Source of the DNA: Brachybacterium vulturis
Lineage (GTDB): Bacteria > Actinomycetota > Actinomycetes > Actinomycetales > Dermabacteraceae
Direction of reading: 5' to 3'
Length of the DNA: 64,000 bases
Assembly: GCF_002407185.1 (NCBI RefSeq)
Contig: NZ_CP023563.1
Location: forward strand, 1,984,001-2,048,000
Shown here in pieces: positions 36,409 to 43,837 of this stretch. How positions within the stretch are numbered: position 1 is the stretch's first letter; every line of letters starts with the position of its first letter. The position numbers and the translations under genes are program-made. A model generated the notes under the pieces. It did not search any database and was not told the DNA's origin. It saw only the letters and a list, made by a program, of their open reading frames with translations.

Positions 36409-36648
36409 GGCGTCCTCCCGCTTCACCGTGGGCCGCTCACGCTAGACCTCGACGGCGCGTTTGACCAGGGGCGGAGCGTCAGAGCTTCCGCTGCTCGCTG
36501 GTTCCTGCGTGGGTCACCCACCGCGCCGGAAGGACCCGAATGATCGAGTTCTGGACCGTCTTCCGTGTCGGAGCTGGGTGGTGCCCGCTCTGCTAGCGTC
36601 CGAGGTGAAGAACGCAGCGGCGGAACACTCACCACGAGGGAGTTCACC

Positions 36649-38259
36649 ATGGCACATCAGCAGGTCGCCGTCGTCGGCGGCGGAATATCCGGTCTTGTCG
36701 CGGCATTCGAGCTGAGTGAGCACGATGGCGTCGACGTCACAGTGATCGAGGCCGCGCCGGAGTGCGGCGGCAAGATGCGCGGAGACTTCAACGCGGAGAC
36801 CGGGCGCTTCGAGGAGCATTCGATCCGGGCGCTCTCCTCGACGTACTGCTCGCTGTTCGACGTCTTCGCGCGCGCCGGCATCCTGGACCACCTGGACCCG
36901 GTCGCGGAGTACATCTTCTTCGAGCGTGCGAGCGGCAAGCGCGTCGCCGTCGATCGCACGGCTCCCCTCGACGCCGGGACCGTGCGCGAGCTGATCGAGA
37001 CGTTCGACCTCTCGATGCCCGACATGATCCACCTCGCCCAGAAGATCCTCCACCACGTCAATGCGTCCGAGGACGAACGCGAACGGATGGCACACCAGCA
37101 GGCCGGCGACGTGATCGGCGTCGATGACTTCGGACCGGCGACCCGGCAGTTCATCGTCAACTGGTTCGGGATCCTGACCGGCGCCCGCATGCACAGCAAG
37201 GCCGTGGACATCATGGACAGCTTCGTGCTGATGTTCATGCCGATGACCGAGTCGCCGAACCTCCCGCCGGGTGAGACCTCCACGTCCTACTGCTTCAACC
37301 GGCCGACGTCCCACGCGATAGCCGCCCTGGTCGAGATCCTCGCCTCGCGCGGGGTGCGGTTCGTCCAGGAGACCCGGATGACCAACCTGGTCCCCCGAGG
37401 AGACCGGTACGAGGTCCAGACCGATGTGGGTGCTGCGGACGATCAGCTCTTCGACGCCGTGGTGATGGCTGTCCCGCACGAGGTGATGTGGAGCGTCGGC
37501 CTCATCGACAGTGCACGTCCGTTCAGCGACGAGTGGTCCTTCGGATCGCAGTTCCCGCTGGCCGAGCTGCCCGATGTGCTGACCCCCTTCGCCGGACGCT
37601 CCTACAACCTGTGCTTCGACGCCCCGTGGAACATCGTCTTCCAGCTGCAGCACAACGGGAGCTTCTGGCGCGACATCCGCTTCCCCGACGGGGCCCCGTA
37701 CACCCTCTCGGCCACGTGCAGCTCACCGCACCACCAGGGGTCGCTTCACGGCAAGAGGTTCATGGACTGCACGCCGGAGGAGGCGCTGCACGAGATCCTC
37801 TTCCAGCTCGGGATGGACGACGAGGCTGCGCGGGCCGAGATCGTCCACGGAGCCGTATCGGACCCGATCTACCTCGAGTACACGAGCGACTGGGAGCCCT
37901 ACGCGCAGCTGGAGACCACCGAATTCGGACGCAAGCACGCCGACGGCACGCGGTGGGTGGACAAGGCCCAGATCTACGTGCGCTCCGCCGAGGACCCTCA
38001 GGTCGGGCCGGTCACGAGGATGCCCGGCGTGTTCCTGGCCGGAGAGGTGGTCACCGTCCCGGGCAGGTGGAAGATCCCCACGATGGAGCAGGCGGCGGTC
38101 TCGGGCCGGCAGGCGGCGGCCTGGACGCTCGACCATCTGGGCCTCGAGCACAGCATCGACATCGAGGTGGCGGAACTCGAGAAGACGACTCAGGCGCGGT
38201 GGGCCTCAGCCCTGCTGCGCGGCGTCACAGCGATCACGGACAGGCTGCCCGCTCGCTGA
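36649..38259 (+). CDS. FAD-dependent oxidoreductase (amine-oxidase/phytoene-desaturase-like)
   Basis: A 536-aa flavoprotein. The dinucleotide-binding motif VVGGGISGLVAAFEL occurs at residues 8-22, then EAAPECGGKMRGDF, and the C-terminal FAD motif PGVFLAGEVVTVPGRWKIPTM near residue 460. The overall arrangement resembles hydroxysqualene dehydroxylase and carotenoid desaturases. No isoprenoid or quinone genes flank it, so the substrate is unknown. Start ATG 36649 follows GAGGGAG. It is convergent with the SDR gene at 38323. Confidence 0.78.
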   Translation: MAHQQVAVVGGGISGLVAAFELSEHDGVDVTVIEAAPECGGKMRGDFNAETGRFEEHSIRALSSTYCSLFDVFARAGILDHLDPVAEYIFFERASGKRVAVDRTAPLDAGTVRELIETFDLSMPDMIHLAQKILHHVNASEDERERMAHQQAGDVIGVDDFGPATRQFIVNWFGILTGARMHSKAVDIMDSFVLMFMPMTESPNLPPGETSTSYCFNRPTSHAIAALVEILASRGVRFVQETRMTNLVPRGDRYEVQTDVGAADDQLFDAVVMAVPHEVMWSVGLIDSARPFSDEWSFGSQFPLAELPDVLTPFAGRSYNLCFDAPWNIVFQLQHNGSFWRDIRFPDGAPYTLSATCSSPHHQGSLHGKRFMDCTPEEALHEILFQLGMDDEAARAEIVHGAVSDPIYLEYTSDWEPYAQLETTEFGRKHADGTRWVDKAQIYVRSAEDPQVGPVTRMPGVFLAGEVVTVPGRWKIPTMEQAAVSGRQAAAWTLDHLGLEHSIDIEVAELEKTTQARWASALLRGVTAITDRLPAR

Positions 38260-38322
38260 CGGCCCGGCGGCCCGGGTCGCCTCCGGTCCCGACGGCACCG
38301 TCCGCAGGACGATCGGCCGTGA

Positions 38323-39066
38323 TCAGTACAGCTTGTGCGCGCCGCCGTCGGCCATCAGCGTCTGACCGGTCATGTATGCCGAGTCGTCCGAGAGCAGGAA
38401 CGCGACGATCGGTGCCACATCGGTCTCCGGGTCGCCGAACCGGCCCAGCGGCACGTTGGCGAGCGATCTCTGATAAAGCTCCGGAGCGGCCTCGCTCCAC
38501 GCCTCGACGCCGTCGGTCAGCGCCATCGGGCTCACGACGTTCACGCGGATCTCCTCTGTCGCCCACTCGTTCGCGACGACCCGGGAGAGTCCCCGGATCG
38601 CCTCCTTCGATGCGGCGTACGCAGCTTGGGTCGGCTGCCCGTCCAGTGCGGCCCCCGAGCCGAAGTTCACGATCGATCCGCCGGAGCGCGCCAGCTGAGG
38701 ATGGGCCGCGAGCATGAAGTTCCGCGTGGCGGTGAAACCGGTCGAGAAGGAGAGGTCCCACATGTCCTTCGTGAGGTCGAGGAACGGCGCCTGACGGGAG
38801 GCATGCGCGTTGTTGACCAGTCCTGTCAGTCCCCCGAACCGCTCGATGGCGGTGCTGACGGCGGACTGCGCGGTCTCCTCGCGGGAGACGTCGCCGTCGA
38901 GGAAGATCACCTGCTCGCCGAGCTCGGCCTCGAGCAGAGCACCCGCGTCGGCATTGATGTCGACCACGACGACCTTCGCGCCGCGACGGACGAGGACCCG
39001 AGAGATCGCTCCGCCGATGCCCGAGGCACCTCCGGTGACGATCACGATCTTGTTCTCCAGCTGCAT
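38323..39066 (-). CDS. SDR family oxidoreductase
   Basis: A 247-aa classical SDR: TGGASGIGG cofactor motif (residues 11-19), VNNAHAS at about 85, Ser in NFGSGAAL, catalytic YAASK, and C-terminal TGQTLMADGG. The start at 39066 has GGAGGACG 6 nt upstream. FabG-like, but not next to fatty-acid genes. Convergent with the flavoprotein gene at 36649-38259, 63 nt apart. Confidence 0.87.
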   Translation of the reverse strand: MQLENKIVIVTGGASGIGGAISRVLVRRGAKVVVVDINADAGALLEAELGEQVIFLDGDVSREETAQSAVSTAIERFGGLTGLVNNAHASRQAPFLDLTKDMWDLSFSTGFTATRNFMLAAHPQLARSGGSIVNFGSGAALDGQPTQAAYAASKEAIRGLSRVVANEWATEEIRVNVVSPMALTDGVEAWSEAAPELYQRSLANVPLGRFGDPETDVAPIVAFLLSDDSAYMTGQTLMADGGAHKLY

Positions 39067-39237
39067 GGCCACGTCCTCCTCCGTCTGGTGCGTTCGTCCG
39101 AGTATCCACGCTCCGCCTCGACGGGCGCTGGGTGCCGTGCTCGCGGCGCGGGGCGCCGCCACCTCGTGAGCGGACATCTGCTCGAACGCTGATGATGCGA
39201 ACCGGTGGTTGTGCAAGCAGGCACTGTTCACGGAGAT

Positions 39238-39450
39238 CTACGGTGGCGAGGACAACGACGTCCGCGCGGATCGCGGGACTCCGTTCGACGCGGCGGGTCC
39301 ACCGAGCCGGTCGACAAGATCAGCGAACCCCTCGGCAGTCTCGGCGTCGTCGAACGTCGTTGTCACGGGGGTGGGGATGCCGGGGTCGCGGTAGTGGACG
39401 CGTCAGGCGGTGGAATCGTTCTTGCGGGGGCGGCGGCTGAGGGATGCCAT
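39238..39450 (-). pseudogene. Tyrosine recombinase (phage integrase) N-terminal remnant
   Basis: AGGAG-N7-ATG at 39450 opens MASLSRRPRKNDSTA, then TGA, then RVHYRDPGIPTPVTTTFDDA in the same frame, followed by GFADLVDRLGG. This matches the N-terminal arm of actinophage integrases, where the in-frame stop replaces a Trp (TGG to TGA). After about 70 codons homology fades into a stop at 39238. It sits directly downstream of tRNA-His, a favoured integration site, so it is the scar of a lost element. Confidence 0.6.
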
Positions 39451-39506
39451 GCGTGTTCTCCTGTCGATGTAGTCCGGACCGTAGCCCGCAGCACTGACAG
39501 GAAACG

Positions 39507-39533
39507 AAAAAACGCCCTGTCACCAGGGCGTTT
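39507..39533 (-). terminator. Rho-independent terminator of tRNA-His
   Basis: On the minus strand AAACGCCCTG pairs with CAGGGCGTTT around GTGA and is followed by TTTCGTTT. It lies 6 nt beyond the tRNA. Confidence 0.88.
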
Positions 39534-39538
39534 CTTGG

Positions 39539-39612
39539 GGTGATCGACGGGATTTGAACCCGCGACCGCCTGGACCACAACCAGGAGCTCTACCAACTGA
39601 GCTACGACCACC
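39539..39612 (-). tRNA. tRNA-His (anticodon GUG)
   Basis: Minus-strand cloverleaf: acceptor GTGGTCG/CGATCAC, anticodon loop TTGTGGT reading GUG, T-loop TTCAAAT, and an extra 5' G (G-1) opposite discriminator C, as required for His tRNA. CCA not encoded. Confidence 0.95.
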
Positions 39613-39766
39613 ATGTGCGAGGCGAAGCCCGCAACGAGAGAACAATATACCGGTTCGCCAGGGCACATCCCAGTCCGAACCGGCTCCCGGAGGTGTGAGA
39701 CACGTTGCATCGAGCGCCGGGGCCGGGTCCCCGCGGGCCCTCAGCGGGCCCGCGGGGCGCGGTCGT

Positions 39767-40750
39767 TCACAGCAGCTCGGCGCGCAGCTGCTCGGGAGAC
39801 TTCGGGGACAGCAGGCCCGGAGCGACATCGAACGGCGTCCATGCGCCGTGCTGACCGGCAGCGGCCATCCGCGCAGCGGCGCGGGCGTAGGCGACCACCA
39901 CGCTAGCGGTGAACTCGGGATTGGAGTCCTCCTGCAGGTGGTACTCGATGGTCTGCGTGGTGCCGGGGGAGGACTCCGCGGAGCGGATCACGAAACCGCC
40001 GTGAGGCATGCTCTGGTGATCCTGCGCCAGCTCCTCGGCGCTGAGGAAGGTCACCGACGTCTCGAAGGGCTCGAAGTAGTGCGGCATCGTCACGATCGCC
40101 TGGCGCACGGCCTCGGCGTCGGCGCCGTCCTGGAGCACCACGAAGCATTCCCGCGTGTGCTTGTCCCGGTTGGTCAGCTCGGGCCGCTCACCGGCGCGCA
40201 CACGGTCGATCGCCTCCTGGGAGGGGATCGTGTACTGGACGGCGGCGGCGACCCCGTCGATCCGGCGCAGCGCATCGGAGTGGCCCTGGGACAGGCCGCG
40301 GCCCCAGAAGGTGTAGGTGGAGCCGGCAGGCAGGATCGACTCCCCGTAGACGCGGTTGATCGAGAACAGGCCCGGGTCCCACCCCGTGGAGATGATCGCC
40401 GTGGTGCCGGCCCCGCGGGCTACGGCGTCGACCTTCGCGAAGTGCTCGGGGATCCGGGCGTGGGTGTCGAAGCTGTCCACGACCGTGAAGCGCTCCGCGA
40501 GCACCGGAGTCTGCTCGGGCAGGTCGGTCTTGGACCCTCCGCACAGCACGAGCACGTCGAGCTCGCCCCGCATCGACTCGAGCGCATCCATCGGATGCAC
40601 GGGGGTCCGTTCGTGCACGGTGTCCACGGCGGCCGGGTCACGGCGCGTGAACACGCCCACCAGCTCCATGTCCTCCTGGAGGGAGACGGCGATCTCGACG
40701 CCGCGTCCCAGGTTCCCGTAGCCGACGATGCCGATCCGGATCGCAGTCAT
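39767..40750 (-). CDS. ddh: meso-Diaminopimelate dehydrogenase
   Basis: A 327-aa NADP-dependent enzyme. GIVGYGNLGRG at residues 6-16 binds the cofactor, FTRRD and LCGGSKTDLPEQ follow, and the substrate region includes STGWDPGLFSINRV and FWGRGLSQGHSDALRRIDGV, all characteristic of Ddh. It converts tetrahydrodipicolinate to meso-DAP in one step for lysine and peptidoglycan. Start 40750 is used; an ATG 9 nt upstream is possible. Single gene, 154 nt from tRNA-His. Confidence 0.93.
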   Translation of the reverse strand: MTAIRIGIVGYGNLGRGVEIAVSLQEDMELVGVFTRRDPAAVDTVHERTPVHPMDALESMRGELDVLVLCGGSKTDLPEQTPVLAERFTVVDSFDTHARIPEHFAKVDAVARGAGTTAIISTGWDPGLFSINRVYGESILPAGSTYTFWGRGLSQGHSDALRRIDGVAAAVQYTIPSQEAIDRVRAGERPELTNRDKHTRECFVVLQDGADAEAVRQAIVTMPHYFEPFETSVTFLSAEELAQDHQSMPHGGFVIRSAESSPGTTQTIEYHLQEDSNPEFTASVVVAYARAAARMAAAGQHGAWTPFDVAPGLLSPKSPEQLRAELL

Positions 40751-40931
40751 GGCCCTCATTCTGGTCGATGGTGACAGCGGCCCGAGTCCGGGCCGCCGGG
40801 GCCGATCCTACGGAAGATCCTCGCTGCGGGCCTGCGCCGGGGCCGGTGCCCTCCCTGCGGGTGCCGGGCCGCGCCATCGACCGCGCGCACGGCGCGTTGC
40901 GCCGTCGGTGGCTCCGGGGGAGACTGGCGGC

Positions 40932-41282
40932 ATGATCGTCGCCTTCTCCATCCAGCCCACCGGTGAGCCCTCGGATCCCGCCGTCGTACGGGACCTCGCG
41001 GAGGGCTCGGACGATGCGAGCGTGCACGACGCGGTCGCCGCCGCGGTGCGCATCGTGCGCGACTCCGGCCTGCCCACCCGCACCTCGGCGATGTTCACCG
41101 AGGTCGAGGGGGAGTGGGACGAGGTGATGGAGGTCGTCGGGCGCGCCACGGCCGAGGCCGGCCGCTACGGCTCGCGCGTCTCCCTCGTGCTGAAGGCCGA
41201 CATCCGGCCCGGGCGCACCGGCGAGCTCGACGGCAAGGTCGAGCGCATGGAATCCGCGGTCGACCGGCTGGAGGGCCGCTGA
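40932..41282 (+). CDS. MTH1187/YkoF-type thiamine-binding protein
   Basis: A 116-aa protein of the MTH1187 family (ferredoxin-like fold, tetramer). The typical features are MIVAFSIQPTGE at the start, TSAMFTEVEGEWDEVMEVVGRA in the middle and SRVSLVLKADIRPGRTGEL near the end. Family members bind thiamine or hydroxymethylpyrimidine. GGGGGAGACTGGCGGC precedes the ATG. No TPP riboswitch signature is seen upstream. Convergent with the Orn-AGE gene, 13 nt apart. Confidence 0.82.
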   Translation: MIVAFSIQPTGEPSDPAVVRDLAEGSDDASVHDAVAAAVRIVRDSGLPTRTSAMFTEVEGEWDEVMEVVGRATAEAGRYGSRVSLVLKADIRPGRTGELDGKVERMESAVDRLEGR

Positions 41283-41295
41283 GCCGACCGACCGC

Positions 41296-43194
41296 TCAGA
41301 GGTCCTGGTCCAGCATCCCGTCGCGCAGCGCGGCGGCGAGCGTCGGCGTCACCGGCAGGCGCGGGATGAGCGTGGCCTGCAGGGCGTGGTAGATGTCCGG
41401 CTTGCCCGGCCAGGTCACGCCCTGCGGCGCACCGGTGGCATCGAGCTCGTGGAACCAGGACCCGTCCTCGGCGTCGAGCAGGTCGGTGGCGATGTACTCC
41501 CACCACTGCTCATAGCGCTCGGCCCAGATCCGGTCCCCGGTCACCTGATGCATCACCGCGGCGGCGCCGACGGCCTCGGCGGCCACCCAGTGCATCCGCT
41601 CCGTGGAGACCGGGGTGCCGTCCCAGTCCACCGTGTACACCCAGCCCGGGTTGCCGTCGGCACCGAACGCCGCGGCGGACTTCTCCATCAGCGCGGTGGC
41701 CGCCTCCAGCATCCATTCGGGCGCCTCGCCGTCGGCCGCGAACAGCGCGGCCCGGGCATGCAGCACCAGGCGCGCCCACTCGATCCAGTGCCCGATCGTC
41801 GCCCCGTAGGGACGGAACGGGTGCGCGGGCTGGTCCCGGTTGTACCCCAGCAACGGGGACCATTCGGTGTCGAAGTGCTCCGGCAGCGCCCAGTCGTTGG
41901 CGCGGGCGAACTCGTCGATCCCGCGCGTCGCGATGCCGACGGCGCGGTCCAGCCAGCGGCGCTCGCCCGTGACATCGGCCGCCGCGAGCAGCGCCTCGAC
42001 GGTGTGCATGTTCGCGTTGATCCCGCGGTAGTCCTCGCAGGCGGAGAAGGTGCGGTCGAAGGTGTCCACGCTCATGCCCGCGGACTGCTCGAAGAACTTC
42101 TCATCGAGCACGGCGAGCGCCTCGTCCAGCAGCTCCTGGGCGCCGGGGCGGCCGGCGGCCAGGGCCGAGGAGGCCGCGAGCACCACGAAGGCGTGGGCGT
42201 AGGCCTGCTTGGAGTCGTCGACCGGGGCACCGCCGGCGACGGCGGAGAACCAGCCGCCGTGCTCGTCGTCGTGGAAGACGCCGCGCAGGGAGTCCACGCC
42301 GTGATCCACCAGGTGGCCGAGACCCGGGCGGCCCAGCAGGTGCCCGAGCGCGAAGCTGTGCGTCATCCGGCAGGTGATCCACAGCTCCGAGGGCCGGTCC
42401 AGGTCGGGCGCGCCCACCTCGTCCAGCCAGGCGAAGCCGCCGTCCTCACGGGCGGAGGCGGAGCCGAACTCGAGCAGCGCGTCGGACTCGCCCTCGAGCC
42501 AGGAGCGGTGGGAGGCGCGCTGCAGCCACGGCTGGTGCGGGCCCGGGGCCGGGGTCGGGACGGCGACCGGTTCATCGCGCAGCTCGAAGGTCCTCGAGGC
42601 GATCTGGGCCTGTGCGGTGGTGGGGCCGGGCTCGTCCACCAGCAGCACCTCGCGGTAGTACTTCAGCTCCTGGATCGACTCGCGGATGTCCGCGAGCGCC
42701 CGATGGCCGCCGTGCTTGGCGGGGATGTTGTAGTAGACGCGCGGGAACCAGCGCTTGGCGAGCTCCTTCAGGCTGGAGACGTCGATGGTGCGGTAGGAGA
42801 GCCAGGCGGCGAACTCGGGCACGTCGCGGTCCAGGAACACGCGGTCGGTGCCGACGCTGTTGCCCGCCAGCGGCGCCTTGCCGGGTTCGGGGCAGTGCCG
42901 GCGCACGTAGGCCAGGCACTGCGCCTGCGCCTCCTCGAGCGTCATCCCGCCGTCGAGCTCCTCGAGCAGGCCGGAGACGGTGTGCATGTTCACCACGAAG
43001 GGATCCATGCCCTGCAGCGAGTCCGCCGGCGGTCTGATGACGAGATCGACACCGTCCCCGAGGATGTTCAGATCGGCGTCGGTCACGAGCACCGCGATCT
43101 CGACGAGCGCATCGCGCTGCTTGTCGAGGCCGGTCATCTCGCAGTCGACCCAGATGATGCGGTCGTTGATGGCACGTGTGGAGCTGGAAGTCAC
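41296..43194 (-). CDS. orn: Oligoribonuclease fused to an N-acylglucosamine 2-epimerase (AGE) family domain
   Basis: A single 632-aa frame. Residues 1-190 are a complete oligoribonuclease: WVDCEMTGLD (Asp-Glu of the DEDD set), AGNSVGTDRVFLDRDVPE, and HGGHRALADIRESI. This enzyme degrades 2-5-nt RNA. After a Pro-rich linker (PVAVPTPAPGPHQPW, about 208-222) residues 235-632 form an alpha/alpha-toroid of the AGE/YihS sugar isomerase type (MTHSFALGHLLG; DDSKQAYAHAFVVLA; NANMHTVEALLAA; ATIGHWIEWARLVL; WVAAEAVGAAAV), with His residues in the expected places. No stop or ATG lies in the linker. A natural fusion of RNA turnover and sugar epimerase is unexpected. Confidence 0.9.
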   Translation of the reverse strand: MTSSSTRAINDRIIWVDCEMTGLDKQRDALVEIAVLVTDADLNILGDGVDLVIRPPADSLQGMDPFVVNMHTVSGLLEELDGGMTLEEAQAQCLAYVRRHCPEPGKAPLAGNSVGTDRVFLDRDVPEFAAWLSYRTIDVSSLKELAKRWFPRVYYNIPAKHGGHRALADIRESIQELKYYREVLLVDEPGPTTAQAQIASRTFELRDEPVAVPTPAPGPHQPWLQRASHRSWLEGESDALLEFGSASAREDGGFAWLDEVGAPDLDRPSELWITCRMTHSFALGHLLGRPGLGHLVDHGVDSLRGVFHDDEHGGWFSAVAGGAPVDDSKQAYAHAFVVLAASSALAAGRPGAQELLDEALAVLDEKFFEQSAGMSVDTFDRTFSACEDYRGINANMHTVEALLAAADVTGERRWLDRAVGIATRGIDEFARANDWALPEHFDTEWSPLLGYNRDQPAHPFRPYGATIGHWIEWARLVLHARAALFAADGEAPEWMLEAATALMEKSAAAFGADGNPGWVYTVDWDGTPVSTERMHWVAAEAVGAAAVMHQVTGDRIWAERYEQWWEYIATDLLDAEDGSWFHELDATGAPQGVTWPGKPDIYHALQATLIPRLPVTPTLAAALRDGMLDQDL

Positions 43195-43309
43195 CGGACA
43201 ACAGTAGCGCGGGGACGCACGCGGGGCCCGATCGAGGACCGCACCACCGGTTACCCTTCAGTTACCAGAGCTCATCGATGAGCCGACGCGAGCCCCGGAG
43301 GATCCTGCA

Positions 43310-43837
43310 GTGAATCTCTACTTCCGCCTGCTGCTGCTCATGGTCCGGGGGCGTTTCCGCGGCCGCCTCAGCATCTGGGACACCTCGCACGTGCGCTTCC
43401 GCGTCAGCCCCGGGGACCTCGACGTGCAGCGGCACATGAACAACGGCCGGTACCTGACGCTGATGGATCTGGGGCGTATGGACCTCATGGTCCGTTCGGG
43501 GTTCTGGCAGCGCATCACCGACCAGGGCTGGTACCCGGTGGTGGCGGGCCAGACCATCACCTACCGCAGGTCCCTCCAGCTGTGGGAGACCTTCGACCTC
43601 GCCTCGCGCGTGATCGGGCACGACGACCGCTGGATCTTCCTGGAGCAGGTCTTCCGCCGCGACGGGACGGTGGTGGCCGATGCGATCGTGCGCGCCCGCT
43701 TCCTGCGCCGGACCGGCGGTTCGGTGCCGATGGAGGACGTGCTGGAACTGGCGCGGCCGCTGCCGGATCATCTCGAGGTGCCCCGGTGGGTCACCGAGTG
43801 GAACGAGGGCTCCTCGCGCCACGGCCGCGAGCTCTGA
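43310..43837 (+). CDS. Acyl-CoA thioesterase-like hotdog-fold protein
   Basis: A 175-aa protein with a hydrophobic N-terminal segment (LYFRLLLLMVRGRFRG), then a 4HBT hotdog domain: FRVSPGDLDVQRHMNNGRYL, the Asp-containing helix and MDLGRMDLMVRSGF, and TITYRRSLQLWETFDLASRV. This resembles the THEM6-like thioesterase family. Start GTG 43310. Its 3' end overlaps the convergent small membrane gene by 47 nt. Natural substrate unknown. Confidence 0.8.
   Translation: MNLYFRLLLLMVRGRFRGRLSIWDTSHVRFRVSPGDLDVQRHMNNGRYLTLMDLGRMDLMVRSGFWQRITDQGWYPVVAGQTITYRRSLQLWETFDLASRVIGHDDRWIFLEQVFRRDGTVVADAIVRARFLRRTGGSVPMEDVLELARPLPDHLEVPRWVTEWNEGSSRHGREL

Follow-up and report, generated by a model that had tools for sequence, protein, structure and literature searches.

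Organisation of the locus

The window analysed here, a stretch of 64,000 nucleotides from the Brachybacterium vulturis contig NZ_CP023563.1, carries on its reverse strand a single frame in which an oligoribonuclease (Orn) is followed, across a variable linker, by an isomerase of the AGE superfamily (Table 1). The uninterrupted 632-codon frame is present as the first-pass annotation had described it, and the protein that it would encode has a calculated mass of 69.4 kDa. The fused gene was the sole match in the B. vulturis genome at an E-value limit of 0.001, with no second Orn match there. An open frame alone is weak proof of fusion, because the opposite strand is equally open over 631 codons (41386-43281, forward strand), this antisense frame being most likely a side effect of GC-rich codon usage. 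Fusion is instead supported by the presence of homologues of both halves, by a linker that is open in all 37 matching genomes of the genus, and by linker lengths that are whole numbers of codons. An artefact of sequencing or assembly within the linker had next to no probability, and is ruled out by the recurrence of the same fusion in 37 genus genomes and in a second genus, g4. In the window, the fused gene is separated from tRNA-His by two further genes, one for diaminopimelate dehydrogenase (39767-40759, reverse strand) and one of thiamine-binding type (40923-41282, forward strand).

Table 1. Features of the fused gene and its surroundings, with positions in the window.
Feature	Position	Strand	Basis and remarks
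TANNNT -10 box (TACTGT)	43201..43206	-	Begins 12 nt before the GTG; predicted leaderless mRNA
Fused Orn-isomerase gene	41296..43194	-	ORF list; 632 aa, GTG start, stop at 41296-41298
Orn domain, residues 1-195	42610..43194	-	NF003765 and invariant residues
Orn C-terminal tail and variable Ala/Pro/Glu/Thr-rich linker, residues 196-221	42532..42609	-	Genus comparison
YihS/D-mannose-isomerase-type AGE domain, residues 222-632	41299..42531	-	PF07221, NF051846 (below cut-off), PDB matches
tRNA-His	39536..39611	-	ARAGORN; lies 1.7 kb away here, but usually next downstream of orn in outgroups

Both halves retain their catalytic residues

The N-terminal half belongs to the curated NCBIfam family for Orn (NF003765; residues 10-193, 242 bits against a cut-off of 106) and matches Pfam RNase_T over residues 14-176. 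The DEDDh residues D17, E19, D117, H164 and D169 are invariant in all 42 aligned sequences of the bacterial family, as are L23, which we take to be the leucine wedge, and H71, S113, R135 and S140, presumably the phosphate cap; with a tyrosine included, all six positions of the wedge and cap set are invariant in the 42 sequences. The wedge and cap are described as restricting the substrate to dinucleotides (PMC8492067). The window protein shares with the known DEDDh diribonuclease Orn (PDB 9f7m, 7wik, 1yta and others) the whole domain, the DEDDh centre, the leucine wedge and the phosphate-cap residues. Known Orn, however, is a stand-alone protein of about 200 aa, whereas that of the window bears a 411-aa isomerase at its C-terminus. 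No DHH-family (NrnA-type) match was found in the nine family genomes searched, with the control matched in 13/14, and for this reason Orn is probably the main diribonuclease of the cell. One RNase D-like protein was found in each of seven genomes.

The C-terminal half covers the whole length of the Pfam GlcNAc_2-epim profile (PF07221; residues 252-607, 367.6 bits, profile positions 1-347 of 347). The best NCBIfam model was D-mannose isomerase NF051846 (residues 224-624, 475.9 bits), the score lying below its cut-off of 600, and the isomerase is therefore classed as YihS-type only. The best solved relatives are YihS proteins (PDB 2rgk, 2afa, 2zbl, 7ag4 and 5x32), aligned over residues 222-629 and named by their depositors as sugar isomerase yihS, sulfoquinovose isomerase, NAG isomerase or putative isomerase. 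Residues R276, H397, H469, E472 and H603 are invariant in all 49 aligned sequences and, in the structure-match alignment with numbers counted by hand, correspond to R55, H176, H248, E251 and H383 of YihS. The protein thus has the three-histidine active centre, keeping the catalytic histidines H176, H248 and H383 of the branch of the AGE superfamily that holds YihS, D-mannose isomerase and sulfoquinovose isomerase. Three histidines are given as the mark of YihS enzymes in part of PMC7762179, with mannose, fructose and glucose, and lyxose and xylulose, as substrates. According to part of PMC9594981, sulfoquinovose is also isomerised by YihS, and Arthrobacter and its actinobacterial relatives carry clusters of sulfoquinovose genes that include YihS orthologs; we therefore keep the class at YihS-type and assign no one substrate. 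No sulfoglycolysis gene was named among five neighbours scanned (36565-43837), one of which was taken from wrong coordinates (about 38324-39079) and had no family assigned. A second isomerase, 48% identical, is present in one genome of the genus (G016:C286:4017-5195).

These comparisons refine the first-pass annotation, which had seen a complete Orn and a complete AGE-family domain with neither half decaying. Both domains are indeed complete and intact, as judged by their invariant catalytic residues, and the family was rightly named. The isomerase begins nearer residue 222 than residue 235 as had been proposed, and it can be placed more precisely as of YihS/D-mannose isomerase type.

The fusion is a property of the genus

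A match to the fused gene is present in 37 of the 38 Brachybacterium genomes, and in every one of them the linker is read through in a single open frame; the only genome without a match, G027, is an assembly 88% complete in 750 contigs. Contig edges past the linker end the fused frame in G016, G030 and G033, and G028 has a frameshift and a TGA within the isomerase. The first-pass annotation had offered a lineage-specific fusion as one reading, and had set beforehand a genus-wide pattern of two separate genes as grounds for rejecting it; the pattern that emerged is the opposite, with fusion throughout the matching genomes of the genus.

The linker between the two domains is far from constant. 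The stretch corresponding to residues 196-221 ranges from 25 to 61 aa in 33 genus sequences and takes 12 lengths, always in whole codons, with a composition of 28% Ala, 13% Pro and 10% Glu and few conserved positions beyond the Orn tail. Within the genus its median dN/dS is 0.67, as against 0.21 for Orn and 0.24 for the isomerase, consistent with purifying selection on both domains. The GC content of the linker at the three codon positions (0.84, 0.72 and 0.89 in 35 loci) fits translated DNA.

In the family as a whole, of which 47 genomes were examined, Orn and isomerase are contiguous in all 46 genomes with a match, fused in 38 and separate in 8. Of the nine family genomes outside Brachybacterium, eight have two back-to-back genes and the ninth, G043 of genus g4, is fused with a linker of its own. 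The unfused genes are tightly spaced: stop and start overlap in G040 (genus g2; ATGA) and G044 (GTGA), the gap is 1 nt in G042 and 4 nt in G045 and G046, and it reaches 39 nt in G038 and G041 and 44 nt in G039. Relative frames of 0, 1 and 2 all occur among these pairs, in contrast to the whole-codon linkers of the fused genes. No plasmid record covered 80% of the fused query at E 1e-60, and one did so at a looser limit. A fusion of Orn with an isomerase was not found described in the papers that literature searches listed, as judged by titles and the openings of abstracts. On the genomic evidence, the fusion is real and conserved and joins two well-known enzymes in a domain combination that we did not find described.

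A probable single insertion between orn and tRNA-His

In the genomes examined from outside the family, the two genes are unlinked. No Orn match lay in the flanks (up to 3 kb) of 51 isomerase loci fetched from other families. In a sample of 79 genomes drawn from across the order, 73 came from outside the family; of these, 41 had an isomerase match (E 1e-30), which never adjoined Orn. By our reading, the two were at least about 490 kb apart when on the same contig and otherwise lay on separate contigs. The isomerase half has among its closest relatives outside the family the stand-alone enzymes of Cellulomonas, with 59-62% identity in the 16 nearest loci of that genus; unlike the window gene, these have no orn in their flanking DNA (up to 3 kb). 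In a quick tree, the family isomerases, represented by 19 rows (10 from the genus and 9 from elsewhere in the family), group together to the exclusion of the 51 others (SH-aLRT 99).

The usual downstream neighbour of orn appears to be tRNA-His, which follows it in 15 of 16 hand-chosen outgroup loci (none was found in the exception, L185), in 13 on the same strand and 91-178 nt past the orn match and in two on the opposite strand. Within the family it is the isomerase that tRNA-His follows. It lies on the same strand 117-181 nt past the isomerase match in G042, G044, G045 and G046 (genera g3, g5 and g6), close behind the isomerase on the opposite strand in G043, and about 960 nt behind it on the opposite strand in G038, G039 and G041; no tRNA-His was found in the 6 kb examined of G040. 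Across 11 Brachybacterium loci the gap between isomerase and tRNA-His is about 0.5 to 2.3 kb. With the family isomerases monophyletic, the two genes unlinked outside the family and tRNA-His behind orn in outgroups, this neighbourhood is best explained by a single event that placed the isomerase between orn and tRNA-His.

Fusion probably occurred twice

A tree of RpoB and RpoC from 20 of the 21 genomes searched (G015 was omitted as incomplete) places the fused g4 as sister to the unfused g2 (100/100), and this pair as sister to Brachybacterium, the genus being on its own branch (85/91). A single clade of all eight fused rows is rejected by the RpoB and RpoC data with a p-AU of 2.9e-12, a value not to be taken at face value because the grouping by fusion was prompted by earlier gene trees. 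On this topology, two separate fusions need two changes, and so does the alternative of a single fusion ancestral to Brachybacterium, g4 and g2 with the genes split again in g2. Re-splitting would, however, have required a new stop, a new start and a new, strong Shine-Dalgarno site, and the junction in G040 (g2), with its overlapping ATGA, is like the tightly packed ones of g3, g5 and g6. In the isomerase tree, moreover, g4 and g2 stand apart from g1, g3 and g6, although the Orn tree by itself has poor resolution and puts g4 in a different position. We consider a single fusion with later re-splitting the less likely course, if a serious one; the frames were probably joined twice independently, in Brachybacterium and in g4, and it is the need for re-splitting to build a stop, start and ribosome site anew that favours this reading.

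Predicted translation from a leaderless message

A TANNNT motif about 12 bp before the start codon is a mark of leaderless genes, which are common in Actinobacteria according to the part of PMC3160421 that deals with them. Such a motif lies at -12 to -14 of the Orn start in 37 of 38 family loci, L115 being without it; this count covers 38 of the 44 family loci and takes the start codon nearest the expected place. It also precedes at least one candidate orn start in 15 of 16 outgroup loci, L186 being the exception, and as background only 7 of the 2491 GTG triplets in the window have one. From these family and outgroup counts, orn appears to be leaderless across much of the order. Orn clears dinucleotides, and dinucleotides can prime transcription. 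An orn promoter with the start codon as the first transcribed base could as such be self-regulating.

In the unfused genomes the isomerase has initiation signals of its own, with strong pairing between the sequence before its start and the anti-Shine-Dalgarno end of 16S rRNA in 8/8 (-6.9 to -10.8 kcal/mol). These signals are mostly gone from the 36 fused loci (35 from Brachybacterium and that of g4). There is no in-frame start codon from -45 to +12 around the junction in 13 of the 36, and none from -60 to +12 in the window gene and 10 other fused loci; in the other 23 of the 36 the median best pairing is -1.7. Weak pairing alone cannot rule out a start, because Orn starts at the same 44 loci, taken as a check on the measure, also pair weakly (median -2.3). 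Separate production of the isomerase from an internal leaderless promoter was rejected, because in none of the 36 fused loci does a TANNNT box precede an in-frame start near the junction by 9-16 nt.

Two proteins could still arise if the linker were proteolysed, or if ribosomes re-initiated within it, to give separate Orn and isomerase. A low-complexity and fast-evolving linker would suit such a scheme, as would the GTG at the position of the G044 start that is retained as an internal codon in 17 of 36 fused loci (the window gene is not among them) and the strong SD-like pairing at an in-frame GTG in two of the 36, L011 and L021. This is nevertheless improbable in view of the window gene and the 10 other loci that have no in-frame start, the weak pairing in most of the remaining fused loci, and the retention of the frame in 37/37 genomes, which re-initiation would not need. 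With its own initiation signals mostly gone and no internal leaderless box, the isomerase of the fused genes is most likely translated solely as the downstream part of the leaderless Orn message. This is in contrast to enzymes of the YihS branch, which are normally stand-alone.

A probable bifunctional protein from two coupled genes

We conclude that the gene probably encodes a true bifunctional protein, formed when two neighbouring and translationally coupled genes had their frames joined. Genome comparison supports a course in which the isomerase gene was inserted once, in the family ancestor, between orn and tRNA-His, and sat tight behind orn with a strong Shine-Dalgarno site until the frames were joined in Brachybacterium and one other genus, where its own initiation signals decayed. 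The predicted product is a single chain of about 69 kDa, its leaderless mRNA beginning with the GTG of Orn. Its N-terminal half would serve as the main diribonuclease of the cell, at the end of RNA decay, and its C-terminal half would interconvert free aldoses and ketoses, most likely D-mannose and D-fructose, through the same three-histidine mechanism as YihS. Being flexible, the linker may allow both halves to fold and oligomerise separately. If the fusion brings any advantage, the likeliest is that the isomerase is always expressed together with a housekeeping gene, rather than that the two activities are catalytically coupled.

The fusion is of wider interest in having living intermediates, from unlinked genes outside the family, through one insertion and tight pairs in four genera, to fused genes in two genera. 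If confirmed, it would show a large and unrelated enzyme being tolerated at the C-terminus of an important RNase, and it cautions against taking each fusion for a functional partnership.

Cyclic dinucleotides and possible coupling

The first-pass annotation had also raised the possibility that the pairing couples clearance of nanoRNA or of cyclic dinucleotides to sugar metabolism. The nanoRNA link is a hypothesis, and the cyclic-dinucleotide one was not supported. A GGDEF domain was found in none of the 38 genus genomes (control matched in 8/14) and a diadenylate-cyclase (DAC, DisA-type) domain in none of the 47 family genomes (control matched in 11/14). As such, neither of the two cyclase domains searched for as part of a cyclic-dinucleotide turnover system was detected, and clearance of cyclic-dinucleotide products is for this reason an unlikely motive for the fusion. 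The result would make these bacteria a simple setting, in which Orn would act mainly on dinucleotides from RNA decay. The family seems to lack both c-di-AMP synthesis (DAC 0/47) and NrnA-type enzymes (DHH 0/9).

A broader functional coupling, in which a sugar at the barrel modulates Orn or the reverse, so that carbon supply would act through the diribonucleotide pool on primed initiation, might be read from the contiguity of Orn and isomerase in 46/46 matching family genomes while the gap between isomerase and tRNA-His varies (11 genus loci), and from a fusion that probably arose twice. We regard it as decidedly unlikely, given that no GGDEF or DAC domain was found, that linkers of 25-61 aa are little conserved after the Orn tail, and that one insertion together with operon inertia explains the neighbourhood. 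More speculative still, and a long shot, is that the barrel serves as a sugar-sensing, oligomerising module of what is probably the only dedicated diribonuclease, a hexose altering Orn and the diribonucleotide pool setting the priming of promoters, the leaderless promoter of orn itself included. If true, a sugar-sensing Orn would be a direct link from carbon to transcription initiation with autoregulation.
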